From positions 1-49,828 of the forward strand of contig JAKSLH010000022.1 of NCBI GenBank assembly GCA_024401335.1: 49,828 nt of DNA, written 5' to 3'. Origin of the DNA: Bacteroidales bacterium. GTDB taxonomy: Bacteria; Bacteroidota; Bacteroidia; Bacteroidales; Marinilabiliaceae. The notes under the pieces were generated by a model. That model did not search any database. It was given only the letters and a program-made list of their open reading frames with translations, and was not told the DNA's origin. Shown here in pieces: positions 2,825 to 32,855 of the stretch (the first letter of the stretch is position 1; each line of letters starts with the position of its first letter). The position numbers and the translations under genes are program-made.

Positions 2825-2840
2825 TACCTATTTTTTTGTA
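2825..2840 (+). promoter_or_regulatory. Putative NarL-type operator upstream of the TonB receptor operon
   Basis: TACCTATTTTTTTGTA fits a 7-2-7 inverted heptamer (NarL consensus TACYYMT-N2-AKRRGTA): the left half fits fully, while the right half keeps GTA and the K position. It ends 23 bp before the -7 box at 2864. The same spacing and orientation occur at 31667-31682 and 32840-32855. This is the weakest of the three copies. Confidence 0.5.
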
Positions 2841-2871
2841 TTGCTTTGTAGCGTGTTTTTTGATAAATTTG
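2841..2871 (+). promoter_or_regulatory. Promoter of the TonB receptor-DUF4876-DUF6850 operon
   Basis: TTG at 2841-2843, 20 bp, then TAAATTTG at 2864-2871, matching the Bacteroidetes -33/-7 pattern. The leader to the ATG at 2892 is about 15 nt. Confidence 0.6.
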
Positions 2872-2891
2872 TCTCGCTGAAGTAAAAACGT

Positions 2892-5837
2892 ATGCCAAGG
2901 ATTCTCTTTTCAATACTCCTGCTTCTGGTCTCTGTGATTGCCCAGTCCCAATCGTTCTCTATCAAGGGAAGGGTGGCGGATTCTGAGACTAATGAAGGTG
3001 TTGGCTTCTCGTATGTTTTAATCCCCGATTTGTCACTATGGGCCATTGCCGATGAATATGGCCTCTTCACTATCCATAACGTACCCGCTGGTAGCTGCGA
3101 GATCACCGTCAGCTGTATGGGGTATGAGGGAAGGACTGTACCTGTGGCCGTTTCTAGTGATGTCGCCGATATGACCCTAAAACTGACACGCAGCAGCCTG
3201 AAGATAAATGATGTTGTGGTTGTCGCTCAGAGAAACAAGACCAGCAACTCTACATCGTATAGCATCAACAAGATGGCACTCGACAACCAGCAAATGCTCA
3301 ACCTGAGTAGTGTGCCAGCCCTTCTCCCAGGCGGTAAGACTACCAACGACAACCTGACGACGGATGACCGAATAGCTCTGCGAAGCGGAACCCTAGAGAA
3401 GGGAAACGCTAGTTTTGGTACCGCCATTGATGTTGACGGTGTCAGAATGGACAATAATGCCATGATGGGTGAGACAATGTCGGCTTCGACACGTAGTGTG
3501 GCGATGTCGGATGTCGAAAGTGTAGATATTATCATTGGAATACCTTCTGTTGAATATGGTGACCTGAGTAATGGTATAGTGAAGATAAATCTGCACAAGG
3601 GAAAGTCGCCATACGTTCTTGAAAGCAAGATCAACCAGTCAACTTCTCAGTTCTCGCTCAGCAAAGGCTTTGAGTTGCGCTCGAATAGAGGTCTGCTGAA
3701 CGTCTCGTTCGAGCATGCTCGTTCGTTGAAGGAGATAGCCTCTCCATTCACCTCATACAAACGCAATGTTCTTTCTGTTAGATATGCTAATGTCTTCCTG
3801 AAAGATGCCGCTCCCCTCAATGTTTCTGTAGGCGTGACAGGTAATGTAGGCGGTTATAACTCAAAGCAGGATCCAGACAATAATCTCGATTCGTATTCCA
3901 AAGACGATGAGAGGTTGATACGCGTGAATTTTGAAGGCAATATGCTCCTGAACAAGACATGGCTGACCGACCTGACACTCAAGGCAAATGCCAGTTTCCA
4001 GAAACGTCTAGGTGAAAGCTATACCAACAAAAGCAGTTCGTCGTCGCAGCCCTACCTGCATACCAGGGAAGAAGGTTATCATGTGGCAGGGACATCGCCC
4101 GACGATGATATCGTGCTTAGTCCTGTAGGCTATTGGTATGTGCGGGAGTTTACCGACCAGCGACCAGTCAACATAAACGTCTCTCTCAAGGCCAATCGCT
4201 CAAAGCGTTATAGCCAATGCTTGTCGAACAAGCTCCTTGTCGGTGCAGAAGTGACAATGACAGGCAACAATGGTAGAGGCAGGTACTACGAGGATTTGGC
4301 GTTGGCCCCAACATGGCGTGAGTACCGCTATGATGAATTGCCATGGATGTATAATATGGCCTTTTATGTAGAAGATCAGCTGACTCAGACATTCTCTGAT
4401 GCACATTCTATAAATCTGACACTTGGCTTTAGAGATGATGTCACCGACATCCCCAATTCAGAATATGGTTCAGTCAATAGTGTAGCGCCACGTCTTTCGG
4501 CCCGTTATGTGTGGCGCAATGGAGAAGCAGACGCGTGGGTTGACAACGTAGCTCTACATGCCGGGTGGGGTAGAAGCATCAAGCTACCATCTTTTCAGGT
4601 GTTGTATCCACAAGAGACGTATTCCGACCTGCTGACATTCACTCCAGGTTCGACAGCCGACAATAAGGCCTTTTATGCATACTATACTCATGTAGGTAAG
4701 ACATTGCGTAATGATGATCTGGCTTTTCAGAAGACCGATCAGGTTGATGTGGGTGTAGAGATAGCCATGCGACATGTGAACGTGTCGTTGTCAGGCTTCT
4801 ATAACACGACCCGTGATCCATACCAGATGGTAAGAGTATATTCTCCTCTGAAATACAATTATACATCACAAAGAGATCTTGAAGGCATCGGCATACCAAG
4901 TGCAGAACGAACCTATACGGTAGATAAGAATACAGGTGTCGTGACGGTGAGCGGAAACGGACAGTCGGTAGATTTGCCAGCTGTTGAGCATCACACCTAT
5001 GCAAGTGACTATCAGTATGTCAACGGCAGTGATGTCGTCCGCTATGGTCTGGAGTGGGTTGTTGATATCCAGATGCTTAAGTGGCTCTCAGTGCGTCTGG
5101 ATGGCAACTGCTACCGCTATCATGGTGTTGATTATTCTTTGATAGCAGGTGCTCCGTCGGGGATCGGTGACTATGCCGCAGAGTCAGGTCAGCAACCCTT
5201 TATAGGCTATTACCTCGGAAGCAATACGACATCAGCTGGATCGGCCAGTCTCCCATCTGTCAGCAATGGTTCGGAGTCAAGTCAGCTGAATCAAAACGCC
5301 ACGTTGACAGTCAGAGTGCCTAAGGCCCGACTTATTGTTATGCTTAAGGCAGAAGCGTCGTTTGTGAACAAAAAGAGAAATCTGTCGGAATCCAAAGAAG
5401 GCTACCGCGGCGTGTTGCTTGAAGCAGCTGGTGATGATACAGGACATCCGTTTGATGGCGAGGCAGATCATTATGTTGCATTATATCCAGAGTACTATTC
5501 TACCTGGGAAAACCCAACGGTGATGATACCATTCGCGCAGGCATTGGCCGAAGCGAAGGACAATGATGCGGGCCTATATCAGCAACTGAGAAGACTGATA
5601 GTCCGTTCATCAAACGCCTACTACTTTAATGCGAATAACGTGTCACCATATTGCTCGTTTAATCTGCTTGTGACAAAAGAGATGGGGAACCATATCGCCC
5701 TCTCCTTCTATGCCAATAACTTCCTGAACACGATGCGTAGTGTTCATCTGTCGCAGACAGGGCTTGATGCCTCGTTGTTTGGTAGCGGATATGTTCCGAA
5801 GCTGTATTATGGTGTCTCATTAAAGATAAAGATATGA
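2892..5837 (+). CDS. TonB-dependent outer-membrane receptor
   Basis: A 981-residue outer-membrane receptor that would import a ligand using energy passed by TonB. It has a signal peptide (residues 1-20, cleaved after a QSQS region), then a carboxypeptidase-regulatory-like domain at about 22-100 (FSIKGRVADSETNEG, DEYGLFTIHNVPAGSCEITVSCMGYEG), a plug domain at about 110-230 with DVESVDIIIGIPSVEYGDLSNGIV, and a long 22-strand-type barrel ending in YYGVSLKIKI. It is not SusC: no SusD follows. The stop overlaps the next start by 4 nt, so it is the first gene of an operon with a DUF4876 lipoprotein and a DUF6850 barrel. The ligand cannot be read from the sequence. A shared operator with the imelysin/di-haem operon suggests a metal-related role (inference). 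Confidence 0.9.
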   Translation: MPRILFSILLLLVSVIAQSQSFSIKGRVADSETNEGVGFSYVLIPDLSLWAIADEYGLFTIHNVPAGSCEITVSCMGYEGRTVPVAVSSDVADMTLKLTRSSLKINDVVVVAQRNKTSNSTSYSINKMALDNQQMLNLSSVPALLPGGKTTNDNLTTDDRIALRSGTLEKGNASFGTAIDVDGVRMDNNAMMGETMSASTRSVAMSDVESVDIIIGIPSVEYGDLSNGIVKINLHKGKSPYVLESKINQSTSQFSLSKGFELRSNRGLLNVSFEHARSLKEIASPFTSYKRNVLSVRYANVFLKDAAPLNVSVGVTGNVGGYNSKQDPDNNLDSYSKDDERLIRVNFEGNMLLNKTWLTDLTLKANASFQKRLGESYTNKSSSSSQPYLHTREEGYHVAGTSPDDDIVLSPVGYWYVREFTDQRPVNINVSLKANRSKRYSQCLSNKLLVGAEVTMTGNNGRGRYYEDLALAPTWREYRYDELPWMYNMAFYVEDQLTQTFSDAHSINLTLGFRDDVTDIPNSEYGSVNSVAPRLSARYVWRNGEADAWVDNVALHAGWGRSIKLPSFQVLYPQETYSDLLTFTPGSTADNKAFYAYYTHVGKTLRNDDLAFQKTDQVDVGVEIAMRHVNVSLSGFYNTTRDPYQMVRVYSPLKYNYTSQRDLEGIGIPSAERTYTVDKNTGVVTVSGNGQSVDLPAVEHHTYASDYQYVNGSDVVRYGLEWVVDIQMLKWLSVRLDGNCYRYHGVDYSLIAGAPSGIGDYAAESGQQPFIGYYLGSNTTSAGSASLPSVSNGSESSQLNQNATLTVRVPKARLIVMLKAEASFVNKKRNLSESKEGYRGVLLEAAGDDTGHPFDGEADHYVALYPEYYSTWENPTVMIPFAQALAEAKDNDAGLYQQLRRLIVRSSNAYYFNANNVSPYCSFNLLVTKEMGNHIALSFYANNFLNTMRSVHLSQTGLDASLFGSGYVPKLYYGVSLKIKI

Positions 5838-7054
5838 TAAAGTATCTTGTGCCACTTATGTTTCTGTTTGTTGCGTGTTCGTCATATGATGTCGAACAAG
5901 AGACGTATGTGCTGACATTCAAGGTAGATTGTAACGATACCAGTTTCAAGGTATATCTGAGAGATCAACATTCAAATGTTTATTCTTCGGCTATAGATGA
6001 AAATGGTATGGCAAGCTTTTCTGTGCCCGCAGGTATCTATAACGCTTCATTGTCAGAAGTAGTGAGCGACAACTATTTTACCATCGTATATAATGCATCA
6101 AAGAACGGCATTGTTGTCGGTGACATGCCGTCGGGTAGTGTTGATATGTCGGTTACCGTGACCAAGACCCAGAACGCCAATCCGGTCCTTATCAAAGAGG
6201 TGTACTGTGGCGGATGCCAGAAAGATGATGGTTCAGGTAAGTTTGCCAACGACAAATGCATTATTCTTTACAACAACTCATCGCAGGCAGTGTCACTATC
6301 CAACATGGCCATAGGCATGGCTGATCCGTATAATGCCGAAGCCAGTTCCCATTCATTCTTGCAAGGAGGAGTGTTGATATACGAATCGGAGGGGTGGTTG
6401 CCCGGAATAAACGGCATCTGGTATTTCGGCGAGTCGGCGGTCATTGAAGCATATTCAGAGTTAGTAGTGAACATGTGTGGCGCGATAGACAACACATTGT
6501 CATATTCCAACTCCATCAACTATGCCAATCCAGAGTACTATTGCATGTACGACCCGGAGGCAGCCAGTTCAGATGGCGGTCATTACAATAATGTCAACAC
6601 CTATCCATCTCCATCAGAGCAGATACCTACCGATCATTACCTTAGAGCCGTGAAGTACGGTAAGAGCAACGCATGGCCAGTTAGCCAGATGTCGCCCGCT
6701 TTGTTTATCTTCTCAGCAGAAGGCGTGTCGCCTAAGGACTATGCAGAAGACGAGACAAACCTAGTCTTCCCGGCAGACAAGCAAGGTAATATAATCTATG
6801 CCAGTCTTCGTGTTCCTAGAGAGTGGATTGTCGATGGCGTCGAGATATTCAATGCCAATGCCCTGCCACAGTCGAAGAAACGCATGACGTCTGATATTGA
6901 CAACGGGTATGTGCAGATGACTTCAGGATATGGACATGCCGTTGTCCGCAAGTTGGACACCGAGGCCTCAGAGATGGCCGGACATGATATATATGTGGAT
7001 ACAAACAACTCTACCAATGATTTCTATGAGGCAGATAGCTGTAGTATTAAGTAG
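5834..7054 (+). CDS. DUF4876 family lipoprotein
   Basis: A 406-residue lipoprotein. The signal MIKYLVPLMFLFVAC ends in a lipobox with Cys15 as the modified residue. The next part (about 25-115) looks like a beta-sandwich, with a carboxypeptidase-regulatory-like PAGIYNASL turn. The rest matches DUF4876: PVLIKEVYCGGCQ, FANDKCIILYNN, WYFGESAVIEAYSELVVN and a PSEQIPTDHYLRAVKY segment. The CxxC pair in YCGGC and further Cys and His residues could bind metal, but this is not established. It starts 4 nt inside the receptor gene and ends 29 nt inside the following gene, so the three are translationally coupled. DUF4876 proteins typically accompany a TonB receptor. They likely sit on the outer membrane as a partner of the receptor; the exact role is unknown. 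Confidence 0.8.
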   Translation: MIKYLVPLMFLFVACSSYDVEQETYVLTFKVDCNDTSFKVYLRDQHSNVYSSAIDENGMASFSVPAGIYNASLSEVVSDNYFTIVYNASKNGIVVGDMPSGSVDMSVTVTKTQNANPVLIKEVYCGGCQKDDGSGKFANDKCIILYNNSSQAVSLSNMAIGMADPYNAEASSHSFLQGGVLIYESEGWLPGINGIWYFGESAVIEAYSELVVNMCGAIDNTLSYSNSINYANPEYYCMYDPEAASSDGGHYNNVNTYPSPSEQIPTDHYLRAVKYGKSNAWPVSQMSPALFIFSAEGVSPKDYAEDETNLVFPADKQGNIIYASLRVPREWIVDGVEIFNANALPQSKKRMTSDIDNGYVQMTSGYGHAVVRKLDTEASEMAGHDIYVDTNNSTNDFYEADSCSIK

Positions 7055-8627
7055 TCTCGTTGCCCTTTGTTGTTACTCTCAAGAAAGGTATCAGATAGTC
7101 ATTGATCGCAATGCGTGGCTTCTGAGCGGGAATGCTGCGGCCATGACATTGCATAGGGATAGTGTAGTATCTCTAGTCTCCATATCGTGTGATCACACCA
7201 ATGGCGGATGGCACGATTTCAGTGAACCTGAAAGAGAGAATACGGTTGTAGCCGATGCTAGGTCGTTCATGCGCTTGTCACCTAGAGTCATGACGTTTGG
7301 CAGTGTGACATATTGTAATATCACAGGATACGACGAACAAGGCACGATGCTTTATGATGACGGATCGTTGAAGCCCTTTGACATCGTTGATGACTCGCTC
7401 AACAATGCAGGAAAGAAACATACAGAGATCGTAGGGCTAGGAGGAGCAGTCGGAGCGAAAGTAGCCGACAAGCTGTCGGTTGGAGCCAAGATGACATACG
7501 ACGCAGGAACCTTTGTGAAATATAAGGATTTGCGCCATACCAATACGTATATGCGATTCGATGCAACTATGGGAGCGTGTGTGTCAGATATATTGTCAGG
7601 CATACTCGATATGGGCGCCAATGCGGAGTATCGACGAAGAACAGAGAGTGTTGAATTCAAGACATTCGGAACCAATGACGTAGAGTATAAGTCACTTGTG
7701 GATTATGCCAATCTGGTGGGTAGTATAGAGACATTTGGAGCCGATGGCTTTACTGAATCGGGCAAGGAACTGCCACTCCTGTCGGAGAAGATAGGCGGCA
7801 GTGTGCAGATGAATATTCATGTTGGAGAGAATATCGAGTGGTATAATGAAGTGTCGTTGCTGAACCATCAAGGTCGCTATGGCAAGGAGACACAGTATTC
7901 TATCTCATACGCGAAGTGGGATGGTGACGAGTGGTCGTATATGTCAGATCTGGTATATAAGCCAGATGGCCAGATGCATGTTCTCAGCTTTTCAATGAAA
8001 GAAGAGCAACTCTCGGCAAAGCGTAATGTATATCGTCAGGAGAGAGACGAGGAAAATACGTCTGTTATCTATTATAGATATTACACACCAGTGAAGATGA
8101 ACGACAAGTTGCAGAGGGATATGCATATAGCGTATGTCGGTCGTTTCTGTAAAATATCAGACTACCATCTATGGACAGTAAAAGCAGGTGTTGAGACAAT
8201 GTTCAGAGACTTTACAGCGTATGTCTTCCCATACTACTGCAGACAGAAATATACAGTCTGCATGCCATACGCCTCATTGATACGAAGGATATTTATGGGA
8301 GAACAAGGCTGCTTGACGGCCGAGCTGGGAGCTTCGGTTACCAAGGCAACAGCAACAGCGTTTGATGTGGAACGACTTTCGGATATTACTCAAGAAGAAG
8401 TGTCGATGGATCGACAAGAAACATATCAAAGTCAGAATTATGAGTATATGACAAGCACGCAGGTGAAGTGTCACGTAGCATTAGGATATCTGTGGAAGAT
8501 GCGTAAAGTCACTGATGTGAGGCCATCTGTCACCTTGTCGTGTGATCATAATAGGGTAGCGTCGTGTGAATATGTTGGAGGACGTTGCCGTAGGACATTT
8601 GCGTTGTCAGTAGGATGTGAATTTTAA
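7026..8627 (+). CDS. DUF6850-type outer-membrane beta-barrel protein
   Basis: The predicted product of 533 residues starts at the ATG at 7026, inside the end of the DUF4876 gene; the frame stays open further upstream to 6930, but the 7026 start gives a clean signal peptide (MRQIAVVLSSLVALCCYS). The mature part is rich in alternating aromatic and polar strands (VGAKMTYDAGTF, HIAYVGRFCKI) and ends in RTFALSVGCEF with a terminal Phe, as in outer-membrane barrels. It fits the DUF6850 family, found downstream of TonB receptor/DUF4876 pairs in Bacteroidales. It probably works at the outer membrane with the two upstream products. Substrate unknown. A weak hairpin (8627-8645) follows the stop. Confidence 0.75.
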   Translation: MRQIAVVLSSLVALCCYSQERYQIVIDRNAWLLSGNAAAMTLHRDSVVSLVSISCDHTNGGWHDFSEPERENTVVADARSFMRLSPRVMTFGSVTYCNITGYDEQGTMLYDDGSLKPFDIVDDSLNNAGKKHTEIVGLGGAVGAKVADKLSVGAKMTYDAGTFVKYKDLRHTNTYMRFDATMGACVSDILSGILDMGANAEYRRRTESVEFKTFGTNDVEYKSLVDYANLVGSIETFGADGFTESGKELPLLSEKIGGSVQMNIHVGENIEWYNEVSLLNHQGRYGKETQYSISYAKWDGDEWSYMSDLVYKPDGQMHVLSFSMKEEQLSAKRNVYRQERDEENTSVIYYRYYTPVKMNDKLQRDMHIAYVGRFCKISDYHLWTVKAGVETMFRDFTAYVFPYYCRQKYTVCMPYASLIRRIFMGEQGCLTAELGASVTKATATAFDVERLSDITQEEVSMDRQETYQSQNYEYMTSTQVKCHVALGYLWKMRKVTDVRPSVTLSCDHNRVASCEYVGGRCRRTFALSVGCEF

Positions 8628-8645
8628 ACAAGGCAACACCTTGTT
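8627..8645 (+). terminator. Weak hairpin after the DUF6850 gene
   Basis: A 7-bp stem, AACAAGG at 8627-8633 with CCTTGTT at 8639-8645, and a 5-nt loop. No T-tract follows, so termination is uncertain; it may only be a transcript-end structure. Confidence 0.3.
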
Positions 8646-8691
8646 AGTAAGGCAAGATTTATTAGTTTTGAAACGACAAATAAATGATAAT

Positions 8692-8968
8692 ATGAAAATA
8701 CTCTTTACGCTTTTTTCTTTGCTGTCTGTTTGTTATGCAATTGGCTAGTAATGTCAACATGGGAACTGTCTCAGGTTCGGGGGAGAATATCGGTGACGTC
8801 ATAGGTGGAAGTAAGCGAAGTAAACCTATTGTGACAGAAGTGGGTAAAGTCACTGTTAGGCCTAAAGTCGATGATAATGCTCCACGATATAATCTTGGCG
8901 GACAACGAATAAACAAAGAGGCTAGGGGACTGGTTATTGTCAATGGAAGAAAGTATATCCAGAGATAA
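8692..8968 (+). pseudogene. Small exported protein with Prevotella-type C-terminal tail, frameshifted
   Basis: An ATG at 8692 opens a convincing signal peptide, MKILFTLFSLLSVCYA, but this frame stops at TAG 8746-8748. The body continues in the next frame (ASNVNMGTVSGSGENIGDVIGG..., open to 8968) and ends in YNLGGQRINKEARG followed by LVIVNGRKYIQR. That ending is the short conserved tail seen on many Prevotella exported proteins. Joining the two frames near 8740-8750 gives a coherent product of about 90 residues: signal peptide, Gly/Ser-rich middle, basic middle and tail. So either a one-base indel has broken the gene or the read has an error there. The only start in the second frame (ATG 8735) would drop the signal peptide. 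Function unknown; it lies 64 nt after the DUF6850 gene and could be in its operon. Confidence 0.6.
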
Positions 8969-9129: not shown

Positions 9130-10212
9130 GTGAAAAAGCTTGATTCATATATACTCAAGAAGTTCCTTGGTACATACTTCTTTATCGTGATTCTCATCAT
9201 TCTTATAGTCATAGTCTTTGACTTGGTAGAGAAGATGGATGACTTCATGGAGAATCATGTAGCTTTGAGCGAGATAGTGTTTGATTACTACATCAATCTT
9301 GTTCCCTATTACGCAAACATGTTATCACCTCTGCTCGTCTTCATATCAGTTATATTCTTCACGTCTAAGATGGCGTCTCAAACAGAGATTATTGCGATAC
9401 TCTCGTCTGGTGTGAGTTTCCGTCGTATGATGTATCCATATTTTCTAGGATCTCTCATAATAGCGGTAATGACATGGGTACTAGGAAGTCAAGTAATCCC
9501 TGTTGCCAATCGCACCCGAATAGCATTTGAAAACCAGTATATCAAGAGTCGCAAGGAGACGGGACTCAGTGATATGCATATGCAGATAGCTGATGGCGTG
9601 TATGTATATATGGGACGTTATTATTCATTCCGCGAAAGTGGAGACCGATTTAATATCGAAAAATATGACGGGGAGCGACTTGTGTCGCGCCTTTATGCCA
9701 AAACCATATCTTATGACTCGGTAGCTGGTAATTGGCGACTAAAGAACTATACCAGGTGGGACTTTAATCCCGATGGCGTGACACATACTATCACCAAGGG
9801 AGAAAGACTCGATAGTGTCATCAATATCTTGCCTAGTGATTTCAAGAATGAGAGAAAGTCGTATGAGATGCTCACCAGTGCCGAACTGCGAAGTCATATC
9901 GGTGAGTTGAAGTCAAGAGGCATCGGTAATACAGGAGATTTTGAGATTGAACTATATAAACGAAACGCATCCCCTTTCGCGTCATTTATTTTGGCGCTTA
10001 TCGGAGTCTCCTTAGCCTCTCGTAAGACACGAGGCGGCATGGGTCTGCACATAGGATTAGGCCTGCTGCTTTCGTTTGCCTATATCCTGTTCCTTACTGT
10101 TTCGACAACGTTTGCAGTCAATGGATCGATGAATGTAGTGTTGTCAGTATGGCTGCCTAATATCGTCTTCTCTGTGATAGGTGTAATCCTATACAATAAA
10201 GCGCCTAAATAG
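9130..10212 (+). CDS. LptF/LptG (YjgP/YjgQ) family LPS export permease
   Basis: Inner-membrane subunit of the Lpt machine that extracts lipopolysaccharide from the inner membrane and passes it to the periplasmic bridge. The 360-residue product has the family plan: an N-terminal LDSYILKKFLGTYFFI helix, two more membrane helices (about 55-75 and 100-120), a periplasmic beta-jellyroll domain (about 130-260, with VYVYMGRYYSF and WRLKNYTRWDF), and three C-terminal helices beginning at ASPFASFILALIGVSLASRK. It starts with GTG at 9130, consistent with the promoter just upstream. Bacteroidales often encode LptF/LptG-type permeases as single genes, and I cannot tell F from G here. It is followed 75 nt downstream by a conserved gene with its own probable promoter. 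Confidence 0.88.
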   Translation: MKKLDSYILKKFLGTYFFIVILIILIVIVFDLVEKMDDFMENHVALSEIVFDYYINLVPYYANMLSPLLVFISVIFFTSKMASQTEIIAILSSGVSFRRMMYPYFLGSLIIAVMTWVLGSQVIPVANRTRIAFENQYIKSRKETGLSDMHMQIADGVYVYMGRYYSFRESGDRFNIEKYDGERLVSRLYAKTISYDSVAGNWRLKNYTRWDFNPDGVTHTITKGERLDSVINILPSDFKNERKSYEMLTSAELRSHIGELKSRGIGNTGDFEIELYKRNASPFASFILALIGVSLASRKTRGGMGLHIGLGLLLSFAYILFLTVSTTFAVNGSMNVVLSVWLPNIVFSVIGVILYNKAPK

Positions 10213-13926: not shown

Positions 13927-14577
13927 TTGATTACAGTAGGTATTTTCGACAATCACAAGGTGATGCGTCATGCTCTTGTCGCCCTCTTAAGTGCCAATGA
14001 AGAGTTTAACGTGATACCTCTTGAGGTTGACCCGATGCATATTGCTGAGCGCATAAAGCTTGATGGTATAAACGTAATGATCTTCAATATTCATGAAGTT
14101 GCGGATGATTCGTTTAACCTTATAAAGCAGCTGTCTCAACGATTTGACCGTGTCAAGATACTTGTACTGTCATCTTCCGACAACGAACAGCTGATAGTGC
14201 GTTCAATACGTTCTGGTGCAAAAGGATTTATTGCTAGTGATGCAGATTCCAACGAATTGACCGAGGCTATATATATGCTACGTAATGGCTTTGATTTCTA
14301 TAGCCAATCAATCTCACATCTTCTTGTAGGTCGCTATATCAGTGAGATGCTTTCAGACAAGCCTAATACTCCAGGAGTGGAACAGCTCAGTCAACGTCAG
14401 ATAGAGATTATAAGACTATGGGGCAATAACAAGAGTAACAAAGAGATTGCCGATGAGTTGTATCTCAGTGTGCGAACAGTGGAGAGTCATAAGAATCACA
14501 TCATGCAGAAACTTAATCTGAAGACAACGGTGGATATGATTAAGTTCGGTATAAGAAATAACCTTATTGAATTGTAG
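13927..14577 (+). CDS. NarL/FixJ-type response regulator with Asn at the phosphorylation site
   Basis: A 216-residue DNA-binding regulator. Residues 1-120 form a receiver domain and about 150-212 a LuxR/NarL helix-turn-helix (LSQRQIEIIRLWGNNKSNKEIADELYLSVRTVESH). TTG at 13927 is chosen because it keeps the first receiver strand (ITVGIFDNH); the next ATG would cut it. The normal phospho-acceptor Asp is Asn54 (codon AAT at 14086-14088, in VMIFNIHE), and the acidic pocket is Asp8-Asn9 instead of Asp-Asp. The Ser in LVLSSSD and the Lys in GAKGF are kept. It therefore probably does not work by standard phosphorylation. No histidine kinase is adjacent; it is a single gene transcribed towards the crp-like gene. 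Target unknown. Confidence 0.88.
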   Translation: MITVGIFDNHKVMRHALVALLSANEEFNVIPLEVDPMHIAERIKLDGINVMIFNIHEVADDSFNLIKQLSQRFDRVKILVLSSSDNEQLIVRSIRSGAKGFIASDADSNELTEAIYMLRNGFDFYSQSISHLLVGRYISEMLSDKPNTPGVEQLSQRQIEIIRLWGNNKSNKEIADELYLSVRTVESHKNHIMQKLNLKTTVDMIKFGIRNNLIEL

Positions 14578-25200: not shown

Positions 25201-27285
25201 TTACGCTATTGCATACGAGTGCATGCCGCCGAGGAGGAAGTTCACACCGAAATAGGTCATGAGGACGGTGAGGAAAGCTACGACAGTGAAGATATGGAAC
25301 GAACGTGGCTTGCTAAGAGAAGGTACTATAGACAGGTGCATAGGGACAGCATAGACGAGCATTGTGATGAGCGCCCATACCTCCTTGGGGTCCCACCCCC
25401 AATAACGGCCCCACGACTGGTTGGCCCAGATGGCACCTATGAAGATGCCGGCAGTGAGGAGGAAGAGAGCTGGATAGATAAGCAGACGACTCACATTATA
25501 GAGCATGCGGCTCTGCTCTGACTTGCCGAACGATTCCATGACAAGAGCCGTAACACCGTTGAACATCATGAAGGCCAGGAGAGAATAGGCAATCATAATG
25601 ACACATACGTGGATGCTGAGGAGAGGTGAGGCGAGAACTGGCATGAGATTGGTTATCTGCGGATTCGACTCGCCAAACATAGATACCATGAGCGAGAGTC
25701 CTGCGAGGAGCATGCCGAAAGGCAATACGAGAATAAAACGTCGCTGGAGGACAAAGGTGAGTATCAAAGCGACGAGAGACATGAACTGCATCGTCTCATA
25801 ACCATTGGTGATAGGTAGATGGTCTGACACATAGCCTCGCAGAGTCATGACCACGATAAGATAGCCTGCCACATGAGCCACAAAGAGATTGAGCGCAGCA
25901 CGAACCAGGCGCGGCACATCTTTGTTCTTGCTCCATCTGACAACAAAGAAGAAGAAGGATAGGATACCGGCCGTAGCTAGTGCCATCGATAACGGACGGG
26001 TGTGGTTGAAACGGTTATAGAACTTCTCGGCATAGAAACGACTGTCGGACGGCAACACACCTGCAGCATATTTCTGTTGATATACCTTTATCTTGCCAAC
26101 TGTCTCCGACAGCTTTTCGTAATCCTTCATCACAGCCAACTCACCCATATAATCGAGTGATTTCTTGATAAAGAACCACTGGTCTTCTGGCATGTCAAGA
26201 GGCAGATTGTCGCCTTGACTAAGCCAAAGGAATTCACCATTGTCATCATACGGATAGATTCTCATCAACTCACCATTGAGCAGCATCTGCACGACATTGA
26301 GTTTTTCATAGTCTGCCGCACTGTTGCTACGTGCATTGAGTTCATCTAGAGTCAGATATTTCTTGTCGCCCCCTTTTGTCTTAAAAATAGGCTCCGATGT
26401 CCATGTCGTGGGGAAGAAGAACCACCCCGTCATGACCTGTTCTGCACTCAAACCCTCATACGACGATTTGCCATAGAGTTTCGTGGTAAAGTCTTTGGCA
26501 ACTGTCTGAAGCGGACAGATACGTCCGTTGTAATAGACATATATGTCGCACACCTCCTCTGCCACATTTCGAGGCAAGATCTTCGGCGAAGCGACCATCT
26601 CACCACAAGTGGCGATAAGCAGAGCTATCGTGACAGTTCCTCTCCTCACATTCCTCAAAGCCTTGCGAAAGCCTTCATCAGGAAGGACGAGCAAGAGGGC
26701 CATGGCGACAAAGAGCATGAAATAACCCACATAGGTGATGCCAATGCCCCAGAGGTCGTGGCTTACAGAGAGTATAGTGCCATAGCCATCGTAGTCGTAG
26801 GCCGACTGATAGAAACGGTAGCCGTGATGCTCGGCGATATTATTCATAGAGACAGAGACCTCGGCCGAAGAGCCGTCGGCATCGATGAAGACTAGGTTGC
26901 TGACATAGTCCATCGGCGACATAGTGCCAGGATAGTTGATTATCTTAAATTCGTTGAGCTTGACTGAGAAAGGTAAGCTGCTGTTGACATCACCTTCTCG
27001 GATATGCATGGTTGACTGCTCACCAAAGAGGTAGGACACCAATGCACCGGCTAGGATGGTGACCAGAGCGACATGGAGCGAGAACACCACAGGACGACGG
27101 AATAGCGACTGCTTGAAGACATATGCTACGCCAGCAATAGCGAGGAGAGCCCATAGAGCCACGAACCACCATGAAGAATAGACCTCTGTATGACCATAGA
27201 TACGCTCAGTCACCGTTGCACAGCCCATAGCTACGACAACGGCAACAAAAGCCACAGCAACAGTTACCTTAATAACCTTAAGCAT
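25201..27285 (-). CDS. Cytochrome c biogenesis protein CcsB-CcsA fusion (haem lyase)
   Basis: A 694-residue inner-membrane protein of System II cytochrome c maturation, which moves haem to the periplasm and attaches it to CxxCH motifs. The N-terminal half (about 1-400) is ResB/CcsB-like: membrane helices at the start, then a periplasmic part with STMHIREGDVNSSLPFSVKLNEFKI and MSPMDYVSNLVF. The C-terminal half (about 405-694) is CcsA-like with many helices and the haem-binding tryptophan-rich motif WANQSWGRYWGWDPKEVWA; conserved His residues are in place, for example PLLSIHVC. Such CcsBA fusions are usual in epsilon-proteobacteria and Bacteroides. It starts 54 nt after the di-haem enzyme gene, its probable client. 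No other c-type cytochrome is coded in the window. Confidence 0.9.
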   Translation of the reverse strand: MLKVIKVTVAVAFVAVVVAMGCATVTERIYGHTEVYSSWWFVALWALLAIAGVAYVFKQSLFRRPVVFSLHVALVTILAGALVSYLFGEQSTMHIREGDVNSSLPFSVKLNEFKIINYPGTMSPMDYVSNLVFIDADGSSAEVSVSMNNIAEHHGYRFYQSAYDYDGYGTILSVSHDLWGIGITYVGYFMLFVAMALLLVLPDEGFRKALRNVRRGTVTIALLIATCGEMVASPKILPRNVAEEVCDIYVYYNGRICPLQTVAKDFTTKLYGKSSYEGLSAEQVMTGWFFFPTTWTSEPIFKTKGGDKKYLTLDELNARSNSAADYEKLNVVQMLLNGELMRIYPYDDNGEFLWLSQGDNLPLDMPEDQWFFIKKSLDYMGELAVMKDYEKLSETVGKIKVYQQKYAAGVLPSDSRFYAEKFYNRFNHTRPLSMALATAGILSFFFFVVRWSKNKDVPRLVRAALNLFVAHVAGYLIVVMTLRGYVSDHLPITNGYETMQFMSLVALILTFVLQRRFILVLPFGMLLAGLSLMVSMFGESNPQITNLMPVLASPLLSIHVCVIMIAYSLLAFMMFNGVTALVMESFGKSEQSRMLYNVSRLLIYPALFLLTAGIFIGAIWANQSWGRYWGWDPKEVWALITMLVYAVPMHLSIVPSLSKPRSFHIFTVVAFLTVLMTYFGVNFLLGGMHSYAIA

Positions 27286-27339
27286 CGAGAGACGATTATA
27301 TTTATTTCTTGCTAAATTAATAAAAACGCCAATAAAACA

Positions 27340-28959
27340 TTACAGAGCCTCAACAAACTTAACGACAGCGTCTCTCTCCTCCTTAGAAAGCTTGCGGAAA
27401 CGCTCTACCGTCCAGCGAGCATCACTATCGGCACTACCATGCCACATGATAGCCTCGAGCGTGTTTCGGGCACGGCAGTCGTGAAGGCGATCTTCAGAGT
27501 TCTCAACAAGCTTACATAGCCCACGGCCCCAAAGAGGCGTTGTGCGGCACCAGCCGGTGCGTATATCATTGACCATCGCGAGACGATGTTGAACCATATC
27601 GGTGTAAGGCCATATCTTCTGGTTAGGATAACGTGGCATATCATTATCTGAGAACATTCCATTAGGATCTTGTATGTGGTCATCACCGGTGGTCCACGAA
27701 GGACGATGGCACGAAGCACAACCTATCTGACGGAAAATGTCGTGACCTTTCTGAACGGTCGGATCATCGAGGTCGCGAGCAGCAGGTACAGCAAGGCCGC
27801 GATGCCATATCATGAAGTTCTTGTAGTCGGCATCACTCATCTCTGCCTCAGCTACATTCTGGCCATCTTCCTTACCTGTCAGATAGCGATAGATGTCGTA
27901 CTCCACACCCTTGTCGGTCTTCTCATTGGGAAAATAGTCGTAGAATGCTTCCTGCACCTCTGGATCTTTAGAGGCTGCCTCGGCATACGCGGCTGTCATA
28001 TAGTGATATTTACGGTCGGAGCGCGTCACATTGGTGATGTTCCATATTGCATTAGAACCTGGACCATCGAGCACAGGGCCACGGCTCAATGCGTAGGTAT
28101 AACGGCGCACATACGGTTTCTTGTCGATACCGTTAGCGTAATATACGGGCTGCCCATCGGCCCACACAGCAGGGTTGAGCTCAATGCCACGCGTCTCATA
28201 GTTCTTGTACTGTGCTATGATAGAATCTTCGGGTATAGCATCGAGGAGACCAGTGCCATAGACTCCGATAGTCGATTCGAGACGGATGCCTACCTCAGAT
28301 ATGTCGAGATCACCGCGAGCTGACTTGATAAGTCCGTAAGCGAAGGCCGAAGCTGGGATAGTGACCTCAGGATAGATGAGGCTATATGTCTCACCATCAT
28401 CAAACTTGTTGCCCCATTCATCGGTATAGTTGAGCCAGTCGATCTTTATCTGGTCTTCATCGATAGGTGCCTTGAAAGGAGCCACTGCCAGCGTCTGAGG
28501 CATACCTGTCTGCGATGTCAGATAGCCATTTGTCTCCTTGTCATAGAGCACAAGCAGATAGCCGTTGCCCATGTCGGTAGCCTTATAGCGTGTCTGACGC
28601 TTGCCATGTCCGTAGCTAGGATGGCAATAGAGACAGCCGTTGCGCACCATGAGCGGCCCCAACCCCTTGAAAGCACTCTCAGGATCCTGGGTGAAGTCTC
28701 GCTCGAAGAAATATTCGCCAAGCTTGAATGCCTGCGACATGCCGGACTGTTCGCAAGCTGGAGTAGGCTGCTGAAAGGCGTAGGCTGTAGCGTTGAACAC
28801 AGTACCCAACTTACCACCTGCATACACCTCCTCGTCATAGACAAGCGATTCCGATTCGTAAGGTTTCTCCTCCTCTATTATCTCCTTCTTGTCATCTTCA
28901 CAACCACAGGTTAACATCGACGCGATAAACATCATCGCGGTAAACATTCTATTGTTCAT
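27340..28959 (-). CDS. Di-haem oxidoreductase lipoprotein (DHOR/peroxidase-like)
   Basis: A 539-residue exported protein of the di-haem oxidoreductase family (COG3488, distantly related to cytochrome c peroxidases). It has two c-type haem sites, CLYCH (109-113) and CASCH (414-418). Family features include GLGPLMVRNGCLYCH, PFKAPIDEDQI and, near the end, the RTTPLWGRGL region, followed by RNTLEAIMWHGSADSDA. The start is set at the ATG at 28959 because MNNRMFTAMMFIASMLTCGC is a lipoprotein signal with Cys18 or Cys20 as anchor; the frame extends 21 codons upstream without one. It sits between the imelysin and haem lyase genes. Family members are found next to imelysins, where a redox step in metal uptake is often proposed but not proven. 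Confidence 0.85.
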   Translation of the reverse strand: MNNRMFTAMMFIASMLTCGCEDDKKEIIEEEKPYESESLVYDEEVYAGGKLGTVFNATAYAFQQPTPACEQSGMSQAFKLGEYFFERDFTQDPESAFKGLGPLMVRNGCLYCHPSYGHGKRQTRYKATDMGNGYLLVLYDKETNGYLTSQTGMPQTLAVAPFKAPIDEDQIKIDWLNYTDEWGNKFDDGETYSLIYPEVTIPASAFAYGLIKSARGDLDISEVGIRLESTIGVYGTGLLDAIPEDSIIAQYKNYETRGIELNPAVWADGQPVYYANGIDKKPYVRRYTYALSRGPVLDGPGSNAIWNITNVTRSDRKYHYMTAAYAEAASKDPEVQEAFYDYFPNEKTDKGVEYDIYRYLTGKEDGQNVAEAEMSDADYKNFMIWHRGLAVPAARDLDDPTVQKGHDIFRQIGCASCHRPSWTTGDDHIQDPNGMFSDNDMPRYPNQKIWPYTDMVQHRLAMVNDIRTGWCRTTPLWGRGLCKLVENSEDRLHDCRARNTLEAIMWHGSADSDARWTVERFRKLSKEERDAVVKFVEAL

Positions 28960-29053
28960 TTCGTTCAATTTGTCATTAAATCGCAAGCACCAAATGCCAT
29001 TCACAGGCACTTGGTGTTGCAAAAAAAACTATATACACAATTAGTTATAAACT

Positions 29054-30214
29054 CTATTCAACAAGAGCATTCTTCAGTTCATCAAGAGCAGCATCAAGAG
29101 CTTCGAGAGCCTCAATTGCCTCGCCGCATGATGCATCTGTATAGTTATTAACGAACGGACGTTTCATACCATTGACAGGACCGTCGATCTCGTCGAGGGC
29201 CTTCTCCAATGCCTTGACAACAGCCGCAGTCTTTTCAGAATGAGTGATTGCAGTGTAAGCTAGCAACGAACCGGTAGCAGCCTCCTTGATATCACCCATA
29301 GAGCCATACAAGGCGTGCTTGCAGCTCATCACATTATCGTAGAAGTCTGTTATAGAGTTGTGTGCATGAGGGCTCTCGATGTAGTTCACGTCCTCACCAG
29401 TATAAGCAGCACCAATCTTGCCGGCAGCAACCTCATCGACGATATCTTGACAGCCCTCAATGATCTGCACTGCTGCTAGAGTGGCCGACTTCCAACGTGA
29501 GCCTGCCTGACCTGCATTGATGAACTCCTCGCCAAAATTGTCGGCCTCAAACTCTGCCTCATCGAGCATCTCCTGACGATCTTTGCTCACTTCGCCTTTC
29601 CATGCTACAAGTAGCTTGCAAGAGTTGAGGTATAGGTCGTTGGATGCCTCTATAGCGAACCATGTCTCATTAGCAGTGAGATCGGATGCAGCACGCACCT
29701 TGCCGTCTCTGAAGATAAGATATTCCACTGCGTGGAAACCTGTAAGGTTCTGACCTGTAGCGATGGCCTCCGACAAAGTAGCTGCATCATCGTCATCTTC
29801 TGATGGATTATACTTCGACATATATTTGTCGAACGCGGAACGGTCGAAAGGCCATGTATCGATGTGAGGGTCGATAGAATAGCCCGAAGCAGCACCGAAG
29901 AGGAAGGCCTCTGACCACTCCCAGTATTTACGTGCCTCTTTCCAAGCCTCACCTGCCTTGTCGAGATCGCCCTGGGCCTTGCTTTCGCCAAACTTCTCGA
30001 GCGAAGATACGAGTGTTTCTGCTGCATCAGCAAGGCCGGCATATGTAGGTACTACGACGCTCTCAACATACTGCTTGTTGACAGGAGAAAGTGCTATCTC
30101 CTGAGCAGTCTCTTCAATCTCTTTCTTTGGATCGTCATCATCACATGCCACAAACATGCCCGACACTGTTGCCATCATTGCTATTGCAAGCAACATCTTT
30201 ACATTCATTTTCAT
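29054..30214 (-). CDS. Imelysin family lipoprotein
   Basis: A 386-residue lipoprotein (signal ending FVAC24, followed by Asp/Lys-rich sequence) of the imelysin/peptidase M75 family (PF09375), a duplicated four-helix-bundle fold linked to iron uptake. The family GxHxxE motif is present as GFHAVE (His161, Glu164) and a second half carries the usual late QAGSRWKSATLAAVQIIEGCQDI. Another typical region is FLFGAASGYSIDPHIDTWPFD. Related proteins (EfeO, IrpA) bind iron in the periplasm; peptidase activity is doubtful. It lies 28 nt after the porin gene and 94 nt before the di-haem enzyme start, so all are in one operon. Confidence 0.92.
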   Translation of the reverse strand: MKMNVKMLLAIAMMATVSGMFVACDDDDPKKEIEETAQEIALSPVNKQYVESVVVPTYAGLADAAETLVSSLEKFGESKAQGDLDKAGEAWKEARKYWEWSEAFLFGAASGYSIDPHIDTWPFDRSAFDKYMSKYNPSEDDDDAATLSEAIATGQNLTGFHAVEYLIFRDGKVRAASDLTANETWFAIEASNDLYLNSCKLLVAWKGEVSKDRQEMLDEAEFEADNFGEEFINAGQAGSRWKSATLAAVQIIEGCQDIVDEVAAGKIGAAYTGEDVNYIESPHAHNSITDFYDNVMSCKHALYGSMGDIKEAATGSLLAYTAITHSEKTAAVVKALEKALDEIDGPVNGMKRPFVNNYTDASCGEAIEALEALDAALDELKNALVE

Positions 30215-30242
30215 TGCGTTATTATTATTTGATTATTATTTC

Positions 30243-31604
30243 CTATAAACTGTATGCTATGCTCATCGATATACTAGGTTCATCGTTGTATGCTGAGTCG
30301 AGCATTCTCTTTGAGAACTCGGCTTTGACCACGATTCCACTCATCGGCATATAATTCACACCAACAGCTATTCTTTTCTTCTCACACCACTTGTAACCCT
30401 CCTTGTGCGTTCCTTCGAACATTGGGTTATAGTATTCATATCTGCCGAATAGCAGCAGTCGCCTGCCTTCTTGCGACAGAGATGTAGAGAGTCCCAACAG
30501 GTCATAGCCTACTTCTGCACCCCATGCCAAAGCTTTTTCGCCTATAGGCTGATGCTTGGATGGCGAGCCGTCTTGACCCGAATGCTTAGGATAGCTGTTG
30601 TTGTATGTCGTTATCTCCTGCGCGTCACTCAACGAAGCTATATCGACATTGCCTCGTGCCACAATGTTATGTCCTTCATAAGCGAAGTCGAACGCTGCAA
30701 TCTTCAGGGTGCCCTTCACATCGTCATATTTGGCCCCAGCAGCTCTCAACTTGTTCTTGAACGAATTGCCCATATAGGCACTTAAACCCATGCGGAGGCC
30801 AGGAACGCAATAGTTGTCAAGGCGTAAAGCCCCGGCATAGACATTAGCTATCTTAAATTCGTAGCAGCTAGTAGCGCCATAGTGCACGAAACAGTCGGAG
30901 CCAAATCGCTCTGCATCCAAGCCAGGAAGAAACAACGCCTCATAACGCCATACACCGGCCTTGCCCCAGAGCGACAGACCTGTCTGATGCCATGTGCAAG
31001 GGAACAGATTAGCCTCACCCTCAGGTCGGTAGCAAGTAAAAAACTCAGTAGGCATGTGATGAGAGTTAGTTCCGCCTATTGGCACTATTATCTCGCCGGC
31101 TCTGAGGTTGAGAGCACGGTTCCAGCATTTCTCTATCCAGAACTGCTCAAGAGCTACTTCACCTCCCTTCTCTGTCTCGGCCTCATATTCACCACTCTCG
31201 TCGGCATCCACCTCAACGGCACTCTCGGTACCGCCATGCTCAAACTCAATCTCCATACCCATTGTCCAACCACGACCGAAGTCATAGCCAAGGTTGACAA
31301 CAACATGAGGCAGATCAAACTGACCATGACTATCATCGTCCTTATGCTGTTCAGGATATTTATATCTATTGAAATGGTCACTGTAGAAGTTGCGTGTCAT
31401 GACAGCCTCGCCATAGCCGCCAATACTCAAACGGCTTGCAATGTTTTTCAGCACGCTATGATCGGACTTGTGTGTAGCCCCAGTATGACCGTCGATTATC
31501 TCTGTAGCACCCGTATGTGCATCAGCCTCTTCCTGTCCATAAGATACAACCGCAAGCATCATGCACATTGCGGTCAACATTACATTTCTGGATATGCTCT
31601 TCAT
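30243..31604 (-). CDS. Outer-membrane porin-like protein
   Basis: A 453-residue barrel protein, first gene of the imelysin operon. The signal peptide ends near VVSYGQ (about residue 23). The mature N-terminus is His- and acid-rich with a short direct repeat (HTGATEI and HTGATHK), then amphipathic strands of the phosphate-selective/OprO-type porin pattern (SIGGYGEAVMTRNFYSD, VVVNLGYDFGRGWTMGMEIEFEHGG, WIEKCWNRALNLRAGEIIVPIG), ending in SISMSIAYSL. Substrate unknown. With a lipoprotein imelysin, a di-haem enzyme and haem lyase behind it, a metal-related role is plausible; the His-rich start could bind metal (inference). Promoter at 31636-31643 and operator at 31667-31682. Confidence 0.82.
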   Translation of the reverse strand: MKSISRNVMLTAMCMMLAVVSYGQEEADAHTGATEIIDGHTGATHKSDHSVLKNIASRLSIGGYGEAVMTRNFYSDHFNRYKYPEQHKDDDSHGQFDLPHVVVNLGYDFGRGWTMGMEIEFEHGGTESAVEVDADESGEYEAETEKGGEVALEQFWIEKCWNRALNLRAGEIIVPIGGTNSHHMPTEFFTCYRPEGEANLFPCTWHQTGLSLWGKAGVWRYEALFLPGLDAERFGSDCFVHYGATSCYEFKIANVYAGALRLDNYCVPGLRMGLSAYMGNSFKNKLRAAGAKYDDVKGTLKIAAFDFAYEGHNIVARGNVDIASLSDAQEITTYNNSYPKHSGQDGSPSKHQPIGEKALAWGAEVGYDLLGLSTSLSQEGRRLLLFGRYEYYNPMFEGTHKEGYKWCEKKRIAVGVNYMPMSGIVVKAEFSKRMLDSAYNDEPSISMSIAYSL

Positions 31605-31635
31605 CTCTTAATCTGTTATGTCTTGTTTGACATTG

Positions 31636-31643
31636 CAAAGTTA
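31636..31643 (-). promoter_or_regulatory. -7 element of the porin-imelysin-di-haem operon
   Basis: TAACTTTG on the minus strand, about 30 bp before the ATG at 31604. The usual -33 TTG is missing; the NarL-type element starts 23 bp upstream, overlapping the place of the -33. That layout fits an activator-dependent promoter. Confidence 0.6.
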
Positions 31644-31666
31644 GAGATCATCAGAAAGGTGTGCCA

Positions 31667-31682
31667 TACTCACTTTTAGGTA
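31667..31682 (-). promoter_or_regulatory. Putative NarL-type operator of the porin operon
   Basis: On the minus strand TACCTAAAAGTGAGTA, a 7-2-7 inverted heptamer pair differing from the NarL-type consensus at two central positions. It is nearly identical to 32840-32855 (one mismatch over 17 bp) and is 23 bp from the -7 box, as there. Confidence 0.65.
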
Positions 31683-31723
31683 AAAAGGATGTCATGACGA
31701 ATAGACAAGTGTAACGGGTACAG

Positions 31724-31760
31724 ACAAAAAAATCCCGGCAGAACCTCACAGTCTGCCGGG
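31724..31760 (-). terminator. Terminator of the hemerythrin/LuxR regulator gene
   Basis: A perfect 9-bp stem, CCCGGCAGA (31734-31742) with TCTGCCGGG (31752-31760), a 9-nt loop, then a T-rich run on the minus strand. It separates the regulator from the porin promoter. Confidence 0.85.
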
Positions 31761-31789
31761 TGTAGGGTGTATATTTACCCAAAATCATT

Positions 31790-32746
31790 CTAGAGCTTTA
31801 CACTCGATATGTCAACCAATCCGTTTACTATAGCATAGACAGTAAGACCTGCCGGTGAGTGGATCTGCAACTTCTGGGCAATGTTGCGACGGTGAGTCAT
31901 CACCGTATTTGTCGAGATGCACAGCCTGTCGGCTATCTCCTTGTTCGACATGCCTTGCACAAGACAAATGATGACATCCTTCTCACGCTCGGAGAGCGCG
32001 TTGCCAGCATCGGGAGTCTGAGATATCATAGTCGTCAACTTATGAGTGACCTCATTGTTGCGCAAGCAACGTTCCAAGTGCTGTATGGCAGGCACAAATA
32101 TCTCATCTTCCACCTCCGAATGAAGCATGAGCCACTCCTCGTTGTTGTATATATCATAGAGCGTAGCGGTCAGCTTGTTGTTGTGCAATCCGTCGGGCGG
32201 GAGATACTTGATGATGATCTGTTTAAGTTCCTTGAGTTTCTCGCTGGTATCACCATGATGCTTCGAAAACGTCTCAGCGTCATAATCACCATTAAGGTCG
32301 CCCTTGAGCAGAGACTCAACGTAGGGGAAGAGATGCTTCTCTTCATACTTCATGTGTTGATGAATAGAGCGGGCATATTCATCGTAGAGCTTCATGATGA
32401 GCGAAGCGAGATTGCCACCATCATTGAGCGCCTCAGAGAGTTCTTTGCGGATAAAAGGCAGCTGGAAACCGAGGTAATAGTCGTGTGACGCACGAAGGTA
32501 TTTGAGAAGCGTAGAAACCGACAGACGCGAGACATCATCGGGATTATGATGGTCGTTAAGCGCTAGATTGACAACAGCCAGGAATGTGTAGGTGTCTACA
32601 CCTTGAGATTCACACACCTCACGTACTGTCTTGTCGCCAAAGCCAAGACTTATACCGAAAGCGCCAAGGCTCTGCAACACGTTATAGTTGTCACGAATGA
32701 GCGATATCATCATATCGTCAGCCTCATACAACTTCATCTTCTTCAT
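31790..32746 (-). CDS. Hemerythrin-domain transcription regulator with LuxR/NarL-type HTH
   Basis: A 318-residue fusion. Residues about 12-60 resemble the ScdA/RIC N-terminal domain (LQSLGAFGISLGFGDKTVREVCESQGVD), but the usual Cys-Cys pair is replaced by Leu-Gly. Residues 80-225 form a hemerythrin HHE four-helix domain with the expected di-iron ligands: His88, His129 or His131, Glu135, His138, His163/164, His209 and Glu213/Glu215. Residues about 250-310 are a NarL-type helix-turn-helix (LSEREKDVIICLVQGMSNKEIADRL, STNTVMTHRRNI). RIC proteins repair iron-sulphur centres after nitrosative or oxidative stress; here the di-iron domain most likely senses oxygen, NO, redox state or iron and drives DNA binding. 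A NarL-type site lies at its own promoter and at two others in the window. Confidence 0.88.
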   Translation of the reverse strand: MKKMKLYEADDMMISLIRDNYNVLQSLGAFGISLGFGDKTVREVCESQGVDTYTFLAVVNLALNDHHNPDDVSRLSVSTLLKYLRASHDYYLGFQLPFIRKELSEALNDGGNLASLIMKLYDEYARSIHQHMKYEEKHLFPYVESLLKGDLNGDYDAETFSKHHGDTSEKLKELKQIIIKYLPPDGLHNNKLTATLYDIYNNEEWLMLHSEVEDEIFVPAIQHLERCLRNNEVTHKLTTMISQTPDAGNALSEREKDVIICLVQGMSNKEIADRLCISTNTVMTHRRNIAQKLQIHSPAGLTVYAIVNGLVDISSVKL

Positions 32747-32808
32747 TGTGTTCTCTGGTTATTAGTGTTCTCTTTTTATGTGCAAAACAGTCAATTATAA
32801 TGACATCA

Positions 32809-32816
32809 CAAAGATA
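32809..32816 (-). promoter_or_regulatory. -7 element of the hemerythrin/LuxR regulator gene
   Basis: TATCTTTG on the minus strand, 62 bp before the ATG at 32746. No -33 TTG at the normal distance; the operator lies 23 bp upstream instead. Confidence 0.6.
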
Positions 32817-32839
32817 AGAGCCACAACGGACCTGCACTA

Positions 32840-32855
32840 TACTTACTTTTAGGTA
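32840..32855 (-). promoter_or_regulatory. Putative NarL-type operator of the regulator gene
   Basis: On the minus strand TACCTAAAAGTAAGTA. The arms TACCTA and TAAGTA form a near palindrome, and the 16 bp fit TACYYMT-N2-AKRRGTA at 12 of 14 half-site positions. It suggests autoregulation. Confidence 0.65.

Follow-up and report, generated by a model that had tools for sequence, protein, structure and literature searches.

A conserved operator 23 bp from the -7 element marks a hemerythrin-LuxR regulator gene and iron/haem uptake genes in Prevotella-type genomes and part of the Bacteroidales

In the genome of a Bacteroidales bacterium (GenBank assembly GCA_024401335.1), a stretch of 49,828 nucleotides (contig JAKSLH010000022.1, positions 1 to 49,828; hereafter the window) contains three promoters with one shared inverted repeat at one fixed distance from a TAnnTTTG box. 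The question raised by this locus is whether the three form a single regulon and, if so, which protein controls it. The promoters precede a TonB receptor operon, a porin/imelysin/di-haem/haem-lyase operon and a gene (31790-32746) encoding a 318-aa regulator with hemerythrin-like and LuxR-type domains. We consider it highly probable that the three sites are operators of this regulator, which would be the fused form of the hemerythrin/CdhR pair of other species. The operator is conserved, and its distance to the -7 element is almost always 23 bp; in Prevotella-type genomes and in part of the wider order, it marks the regulator gene together with iron/haem uptake genes. The sites and their promoter elements are as follows.

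2825..2840, plus strand: operator of the TonB receptor operon, TACCTATTTTTTTGTA, with a weak right half-site; rank 3 of 99,548 by a matrix from other species
2841..2843, plus strand: TTG immediately 3' of this operator, taken as the -33 element; conserved in the matrix training sites
2864..2871, plus strand: -7 element of the TonB operon, TAAATTTG, 23 bp past the operator
31667..31682, minus strand: operator of the porin operon, TACCTAAAAGTGAGTA; matrix rank 1
31636..31643, minus strand: -7 element of the porin operon, TAACTTTG, 23 bp past the operator
32840..32855, minus strand: operator of the regulator gene, TACCTAAAAGTAAGTA; matrix rank 2, position kept in 61/80 orthologous promoters
32809..32816, minus strand: -7 element of the regulator gene, TATCTTTG, 23 bp past the operator

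A sequence-only reading of the window had described these sites. Re-examination confirmed the three positions, the strand of each, the spacing of 23 bp and the location of the TAnnTTTG boxes (2864, 31643 and 32816). The two minus-strand operators are identical at 15/16 bases, or at 16/17 when the following base is counted. NarL-type sites are inverted repeats with TACC half-sites. The 7-2-7 NarL heptamer first proposed for the window is right as to the shared inverted repeat, but its form has to be corrected to TACCnA-N4-TnGGTA plus TTG, with one half often degenerate. Across the host genome, i.e. the genome holding the window (2,715,117 bases), the pattern TACCTA-N7-GTA-N23-TAnnTTTG has three matches, all at these promoters, and its reversed control has none. 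The core TACCTA-N7-GTA alone is not enriched (10 matches against 28 for the reversed control). Since the short core is unenriched whereas the full pattern is unique, the signal resides in the combination of core and -7 element at a single distance.

Because the pattern had been picked after the sites were seen, an independent, window-blind test was made. A matrix was built from 72 non-redundant sites (92 before removal of near-duplicates) taken from other species, at the promoters of the regulator and the porin; window sites were excluded and no TonB promoters were used. When all 99,548 window positions were scanned with it, the porin site (30.1 bits), the regulator site (19.5) and the TonB site (16.5) were the top three, and the fourth-best position reached 4.4 bits. 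With a local-alignment model, R1, the same sites obtained E values of 0.004, 0.41 and 5.97, respectively, in the whole host genome. The two best R1 matches of the whole genome lie outside the window, ahead of a broken TonB receptor start (contig C2) and a FeoA-FeoB fusion (contig C11). On C2, a near-perfect operator (206-221; L038, L297) is followed 23 bp further by TAATTTCG and by the first codons of a TonB receptor that break off, so that it looks like a decayed regulon member. On C11, a strong operator (39173-39225; L127, L296) precedes a 780-aa FeoA-FeoB fusion. With these two strong sites beside the three of the window, the regulon of this genome therefore comprises at least five sites, one of them ahead of a broken gene. 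The regulon originally suggested is supported as to its three parts, but it is larger than three units.

Conservation was followed in 80 loci that encode the fused regulator at 67-76% identity, the top-ranking 80 among 525 relatives; most but not all of the 80 are labelled Prevotella or Prevotellaceae. Upstream of the regulator, a TAC[CT]TA site stands exactly 23 bp from a T[AT]nnTT[TC]G box in 61/80 loci. With TACCTA only, and spacings of 15-32 allowed, 58 cases fell at 23, three at 22, 13 at 15 and one at 31. A porin gene lies divergently beside the regulator in 43/80 loci, in most cases with the imelysin, di-haem and CcsAB genes after it, insofar as the contig covers them; the porin operon is on the opposite side of the regulator in 2/80, and no porin relative occurs within the stretch examined in 35/80. 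The window differs from the 43 divergent loci in that its regulator and porin operon run in the same direction. In 31/43 loci, the promoter of the divergent porin gene carries a separate site, oriented with the porin gene, at exactly 23 bp; one other match is at 28 bp and no further one at spacings of 15-32. The intergenic region of such divergent pairs (L068, approximately 9828-9950, and similar loci) often contains two opposed operators, each 23 bp from its own -7 element.

A spacing histogram over every position in the 1.42 Mb of these loci has a single peak at 23 among spacings of 5-44. At this spacing, 16, 18 and 6 matches carry 9, 10 and at least 11 of the 12 half-site bases, respectively, against at most two at any other spacing. 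The consensus is AAATACCTA-N4-TnnTTATTGC at regulator genes, where the right half is degenerate, and TACCnA-N4-TnnGTATTGC at porin genes, where the left half is. The TTG directly after the operator is nearly invariant in the training sites though not demanded by the searches. The available part of one study gives the Bacteroides promoter as TTTG near -33 and TAnnTTTG at -7 (PMC7366714), and the TTG, 20 bp ahead of TAnnTTTG, fits the -33 element. The regulator and porin promoters of the window have poor -33 elements (TAG and TGG in place of TTG), which would make them depend on an activator.

Within the genus of the host, the exact full pattern was found in 4/15 genomes, the host included, and the control in none of the 15. 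Of the four matches outside the host, three precede a TonB-DUF4876-DUF6850 operon (G003), with the site at 23 bp though the TonB receptor is only 26% identical; a methyltransferase gene followed by a CcsAB relative (G005); and a ZIP-like gene, identified as ZIP by eye (G005). The fourth lies at a contig end (G014). Fused orthologs of the same genus have the site at 23 bp (L009), at 22 bp (L010, L011) or by eye only (L012). Among 24 other TonB relatives in the order, five pass the test, all at 23 bp and one far upstream, and two more show the site by eye with TAnnTTTA. Both the fixed distance and the presence of a site ahead of the two operons and of the gene for the regulator itself, as proposed by the sequence-only reading, are therefore borne out in other species, where matches gather 23 bp from the box at regulator (61/80) and porin (31/43) promoters. 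Separately, five split hemerythrin genes in the family of the host (L020, L022, L023, L031, L033) have a different upstream motif, approximately TTATTTGGAAAGATTTTAAATAA, just ahead of the -7 element, which is perhaps another operator.

In 198 genomes of the order, R1 yielded 27 matches at E <= 1e-5, spread over 18 genomes; the host accounts for two. Four of the other 25 lie within 180 bp upstream of the regulator (split pair in G181, G135 and G196; fused in G101), while a fifth (G257) is in an intergenic region shared with the regulator but faces the opposite direction. TonB receptors follow five matches, two of these receptors being relatives of that in the window (G181, G239); flavodoxin follows two and FeoAB one. 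The match in G186, a genome with no regulator match to 1e-15, precedes a porin 55% identical to that of the window. The remainder precede a redoxin, an ABC transporter, a papain-type protease and a weak porin relative, and seven are unplaced. The motif occurs in 12/29 genomes with a strong regulator match (E <= 1e-40) versus 6/169 others (Fisher 1e-7, kinship ignored and the cut-off set after the table had been seen).

To approach the wider regulon, the named loci served as an entry to 12 genomes, from which the top 60 matches (E up to 2.9e-6; 2 to 8 per genome) were taken. The first genes after these matches comprise nine regulators, six porins (BLAST-checked), 39 others with an open reading frame (ORF) of at least 100 aa and six without; several of the 15 regulator and porin matches had been training sites of the matrix. 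Among the 39 others are 15 TonB receptors, TonB-like barrels or pieces, four TetR regulators, three ZIP transporters, two flavodoxins and two calycin-like proteins. FeoAB, HmuY, CobN, CbiX, PepSY, a methyltransferase, an OprB porin, a leucine-rich repeat protein, a dicarboxylate symporter, pyruvate formate-lyase and an AraC regulator occur once each, and in two no family was seen. A TonB plug domain is present in 12/39 first genes, versus at most 1/39 in a control of random TAnnTTTGC promoters, one from each of 39 loci near the regulator out of 119 candidates; for the control the best 25 of 80 families were considered, so one TonB match is possible. The control genes include one flavodoxin-type protein and, from L104, one member of the haem-lyase operon itself.

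The genes of the three units in the window are listed below.

2892..5837, plus strand: TonB-dependent receptor (CarboxypepD_reg and plug; Pfam)
5834..7054, plus strand: DUF4876 protein (Pfam)
6930..8627, plus strand: DUF6850 protein; the listed ORF overlaps the preceding gene and the real start is probably further downstream
30243..31604, minus strand: porin, so named in the sequence-only reading; no Pfam family, 55% identity to the operator-bearing relative in G186
29054..30214, minus strand: imelysin (Peptidase_M75; Pfam)
27340..29022, minus strand: di-haem oxidoreductase (DHOR; Pfam)
25201..27285, minus strand: ResB-CcsB cytochrome c assembly fusion (family profile match)
31790..32746, minus strand: regulator, 318 aa, hemerythrin/RIC-like domain and LuxR/NarL helix-turn-helix (HTH)

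Of the 80 loci, a horse-faeces Bacteroidales record (L104) holds the nearest counterparts of the porin operon (25201-31604), at 66-83% identity; the label 'Prevotella' earlier given to the window is therefore unproven.

The regulator consists of a hemerythrin/RIC-like domain (approximately residues 77-225; Pfam Hemerythrin, 1.2e-12) and a LuxR/NarL HTH (approximately 250-311; GerE, 1.4e-18). Its putative di-iron ligands, H88, H131, E135, H164, H209 and E213, are invariant in 48/48 orthologs. By order and spacing rather than residue alignment, they correspond to the YtfE ligands given in the accessible text of PMC9268430. The predicted fold matches RIC proteins and NarL-type HTH domains, with NarL, LiaR and VraR among the PDB matches, although helical bundles reach middling Z by chance; Foldseek gave no match at E <= 0.001, the best being YtfE (2.3e-3). 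A PDB sequence search with a 5-row profile returned 27 matches, which their names and the ranges matched identify as HTH proteins throughout, and no hemerythrin chain at E <= 0.001. The score against the RIC family TIGR03652 (63.2 bits) is far below its curated cut-off of 204.7. A NarL/FixJ response regulator of the receiver type was ruled out, there being no Response_reg match at E <= 0.001. The NarL-type HTH noted at the outset is thus confirmed, but the protein is no orphan; its domain make-up identifies it as a fused hemerythrin/CdhR pair, and split hemerythrin/LuxR pairs in other genomes match it over both halves. Orthology to the named CdhR-type proteins rests on domain make-up, not on comparison with the PG1237, BT0519-BT0520 or PIN17_RS10465 sequences, and the link to iron/haem uptake genes that characterizes such proteins is seen here through the operator-bearing promoters.

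A second LuxR-type regulator, which has a receiver domain, is encoded at 13927-14577 of the window, with no high-scoring matrix site nearby. The hemerythrin-LuxR regulator shares 67-76% identity with the 80 mostly Prevotella-labelled loci, but only 54-58% with the four fused orthologs of its own genus. Other genomes of this genus carry the split pair, which in G005 adjoins an LptF/G gene with a counterpart at 9130-10212 of the window. Horizontal replacement of the regulator gene is, from these identities and neighbours, possible.

Published expression data bear on the same genes. According to the available portion of PMC10434189, iron depletion raises BT0519-20 of Bacteroides thetaiotaomicron 16-20 fold, BT2473-82 (CcsA, porin, thiol oxidoreductase and peptidase M75 among others) 63-324 fold and BT3631-33 (DUF4876 proteins and a TonB receptor) approximately 112-128 fold. 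In Porphyromonas gingivalis, PG1236-37 rise approximately 7 fold and PG1019-22 (DUF4876, TonB) 21-215 fold. Judged by gene content, without sequence alignment, these induced units appear to be counterparts of all three units in the window. In addition, cdhR, PG1019-1020 and the hmu genes are described as rising together in a PG_0686 mutant in the part of PMC10101095 available. This transcriptome evidence is independent of the DNA motif. Together with the conserved sites in other species, the iron-depletion data (PMC10434189, as excerpted) support the claim of the sequence-only reading that the regulator controls all three units and that the two operons act in one pathway.

In the mechanism that we propose, a dimer of LuxR domains would occupy the inverted repeat beside the -33 element, its centre estimated near -43, and the bound regulator would help RNA polymerase to start transcription. 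An activator is expected because the operator directly abuts the -33 element, at a constant helical phase, which is the usual place for RNA polymerase contact; the earlier suggestion that a placement near -40 fits activation is consistent with this estimate. The hemerythrin-like domain may hold a di-iron site and report iron status, so that low iron would switch the regulon on, and iron is the most likely signal. The TonB/DUF4876/DUF6850 operon and the porin/imelysin/di-haem/haem-lyase operon would then be two arms of one iron-scavenging response, and the regulator would amplify its own expression. We infer binding, iron sensing and direction of control alike.

That the three-way match is due to chance or to a generic promoter feature is scarcely credible. 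In its favour, the genome shows no excess of the short core and the pattern was picked after sight; nevertheless this explanation was rejected on the blind matrix ranks of 1 to 3, the conservation at orthologous promoters and the single-peaked spacing histogram. Alternatively, the operator and regulon may be real but bound by a Fur or DtxR-type repressor, the hemerythrin-LuxR gene being merely a target. The regulator gene does lie inside the regulon, and Fur-family genes are present in 175/198 genomes of the order, the host included. However, Fur is unlinked to the motif (16/18 motif genomes versus 159/180 others), and no Fur match was found in motif genomes G130 and G162, which are 98-99% complete. 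The DtxR N-domain has no match in the host at E <= 0.001, and of 18 motif genomes six have one at that level and one over the family cut-off. Moreover, a fixed distance next to the -33 element is more easily reconciled with an activator than with a repressor, and the inverted TACC/GGTA halves resemble NarL-type sites. Fur or DtxR as the binder is thereby weakened and, in our judgement, improbable.

It is also conceivable, though we think it rather unlikely, that the regulator binds but that oxygen or nitric oxide (NO) is what its hemerythrin domain detects, the iron genes responding within a redox/NO response. Oxygen binding or reaction with NO is described for hemerythrin and RIC domains in the available parts of PMC10101095 and PMC9268430, and one order-level match precedes a redoxin. 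Against this, the match list is dominated by iron/haem uptake and flavodoxin genes. For the orthologous pair, induction under iron depletion is on record (PMC10434189, in part), although it could stem from autoregulation downstream of any signal. As for the direction of control, published accounts of CdhR disagree as to whether it is an activator or a repressor, and the title of a 2009 paper by Wu et al. reportedly calls PG1237 an activator. In the excerpts available, PG1237 is likewise called an activator in PMC3832793, whereas CdhR is reported to repress both mfa1 and luxS in P. gingivalis (PMC4082711) and the pg1237 product is called a repressor of hmu (PMC2671838). The fixed 23-bp phasing beside the -33 element argues against repression, and repression of some or all three promoters by the regulator is, on balance, unlikely.

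Several observations weigh against the reading that we favour. The TonB site is not significant alone genome-wide (R1, E 5.97) and is outscored by many partial matches elsewhere; the strict test is missed by 19/80 regulator promoters and 12/43 porin promoters, and passed by only 5 of the 24 TonB relatives outside the window. The gap is 22 bp in two same-genus fused orthologs, and 26/30 loci have no scoring upstream site, including all the split hemerythrin genes that were tested from the host's genus and family (only L008-L011 scored). An R1 match (E <= 1e-5) occurs in only 18/198 genomes, yet a regulator match (E <= 1e-15) in 132. Some matches precede unrelated-looking genes (pyruvate formate-lyase, dicarboxylate symporter, AraC regulator). 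Further, the reported repression of mfa1 and luxS (PMC4082711, as available) implies that CdhR may not be an activator only.

Compared with known systems, the window regulator is closest to CdhR (PG1237) with PG1236 of P. gingivalis and to BT0519-BT0520, which likewise have hemerythrin and LuxR-type domains and are tied to haem/iron genes; PIN17_RS10465 of Prevotella intermedia is fused, as the window regulator is. No published CdhR operator or genome-wide target set was found in searches of open-licence papers that did not cover two primary CdhR papers (Wu 2009; Chawla 2010). The family to which the protein belongs was already known, as was its connection with haem genes; the operator, its spacing and a likely regulon are defined here. 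NarL/FixJ regulators share the C-terminal HTH fold and the inverted repeat with TACC half-sites, but their input is a receiver domain, whereas the window regulator has a hemerythrin-like input and no receiver. RIC proteins (YtfE, ScdA) resemble it in the four-helix di-iron type of fold and the matching ligand set; in contrast to them, it is fused to a DNA-binding domain and scores far below the RIC family cut-off. Fur and DtxR also control iron uptake genes, but they belong to different protein families and their presence is uncorrelated with the site. In animal cells, FBXL5, a ubiquitin ligase subunit, is a hemerythrin iron sensor; a use of the hemerythrin domain for iron sensing may be shared, by analogy only, as FBXL5 does not bind DNA.

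With a defined operator, an exact promoter position and a predicted list of targets, the question becomes testable, and the operator offers a search tool for iron-controlled genes in uncultured relatives. We regard it as about an even prospect that the CdhR-type hemerythrin-LuxR protein senses iron directly through a di-iron site and, in much of the Bacteroidales, serves as the chief activator under iron starvation. On losing iron from its hemerythrin-like site, it would occupy one standard operator beside the -33 element at tens of iron/haem uptake promoters, in the role that Fur plays elsewhere by repression. If this reading of the sensor is true, a bacterial hemerythrin would act as a transcriptional iron switch.

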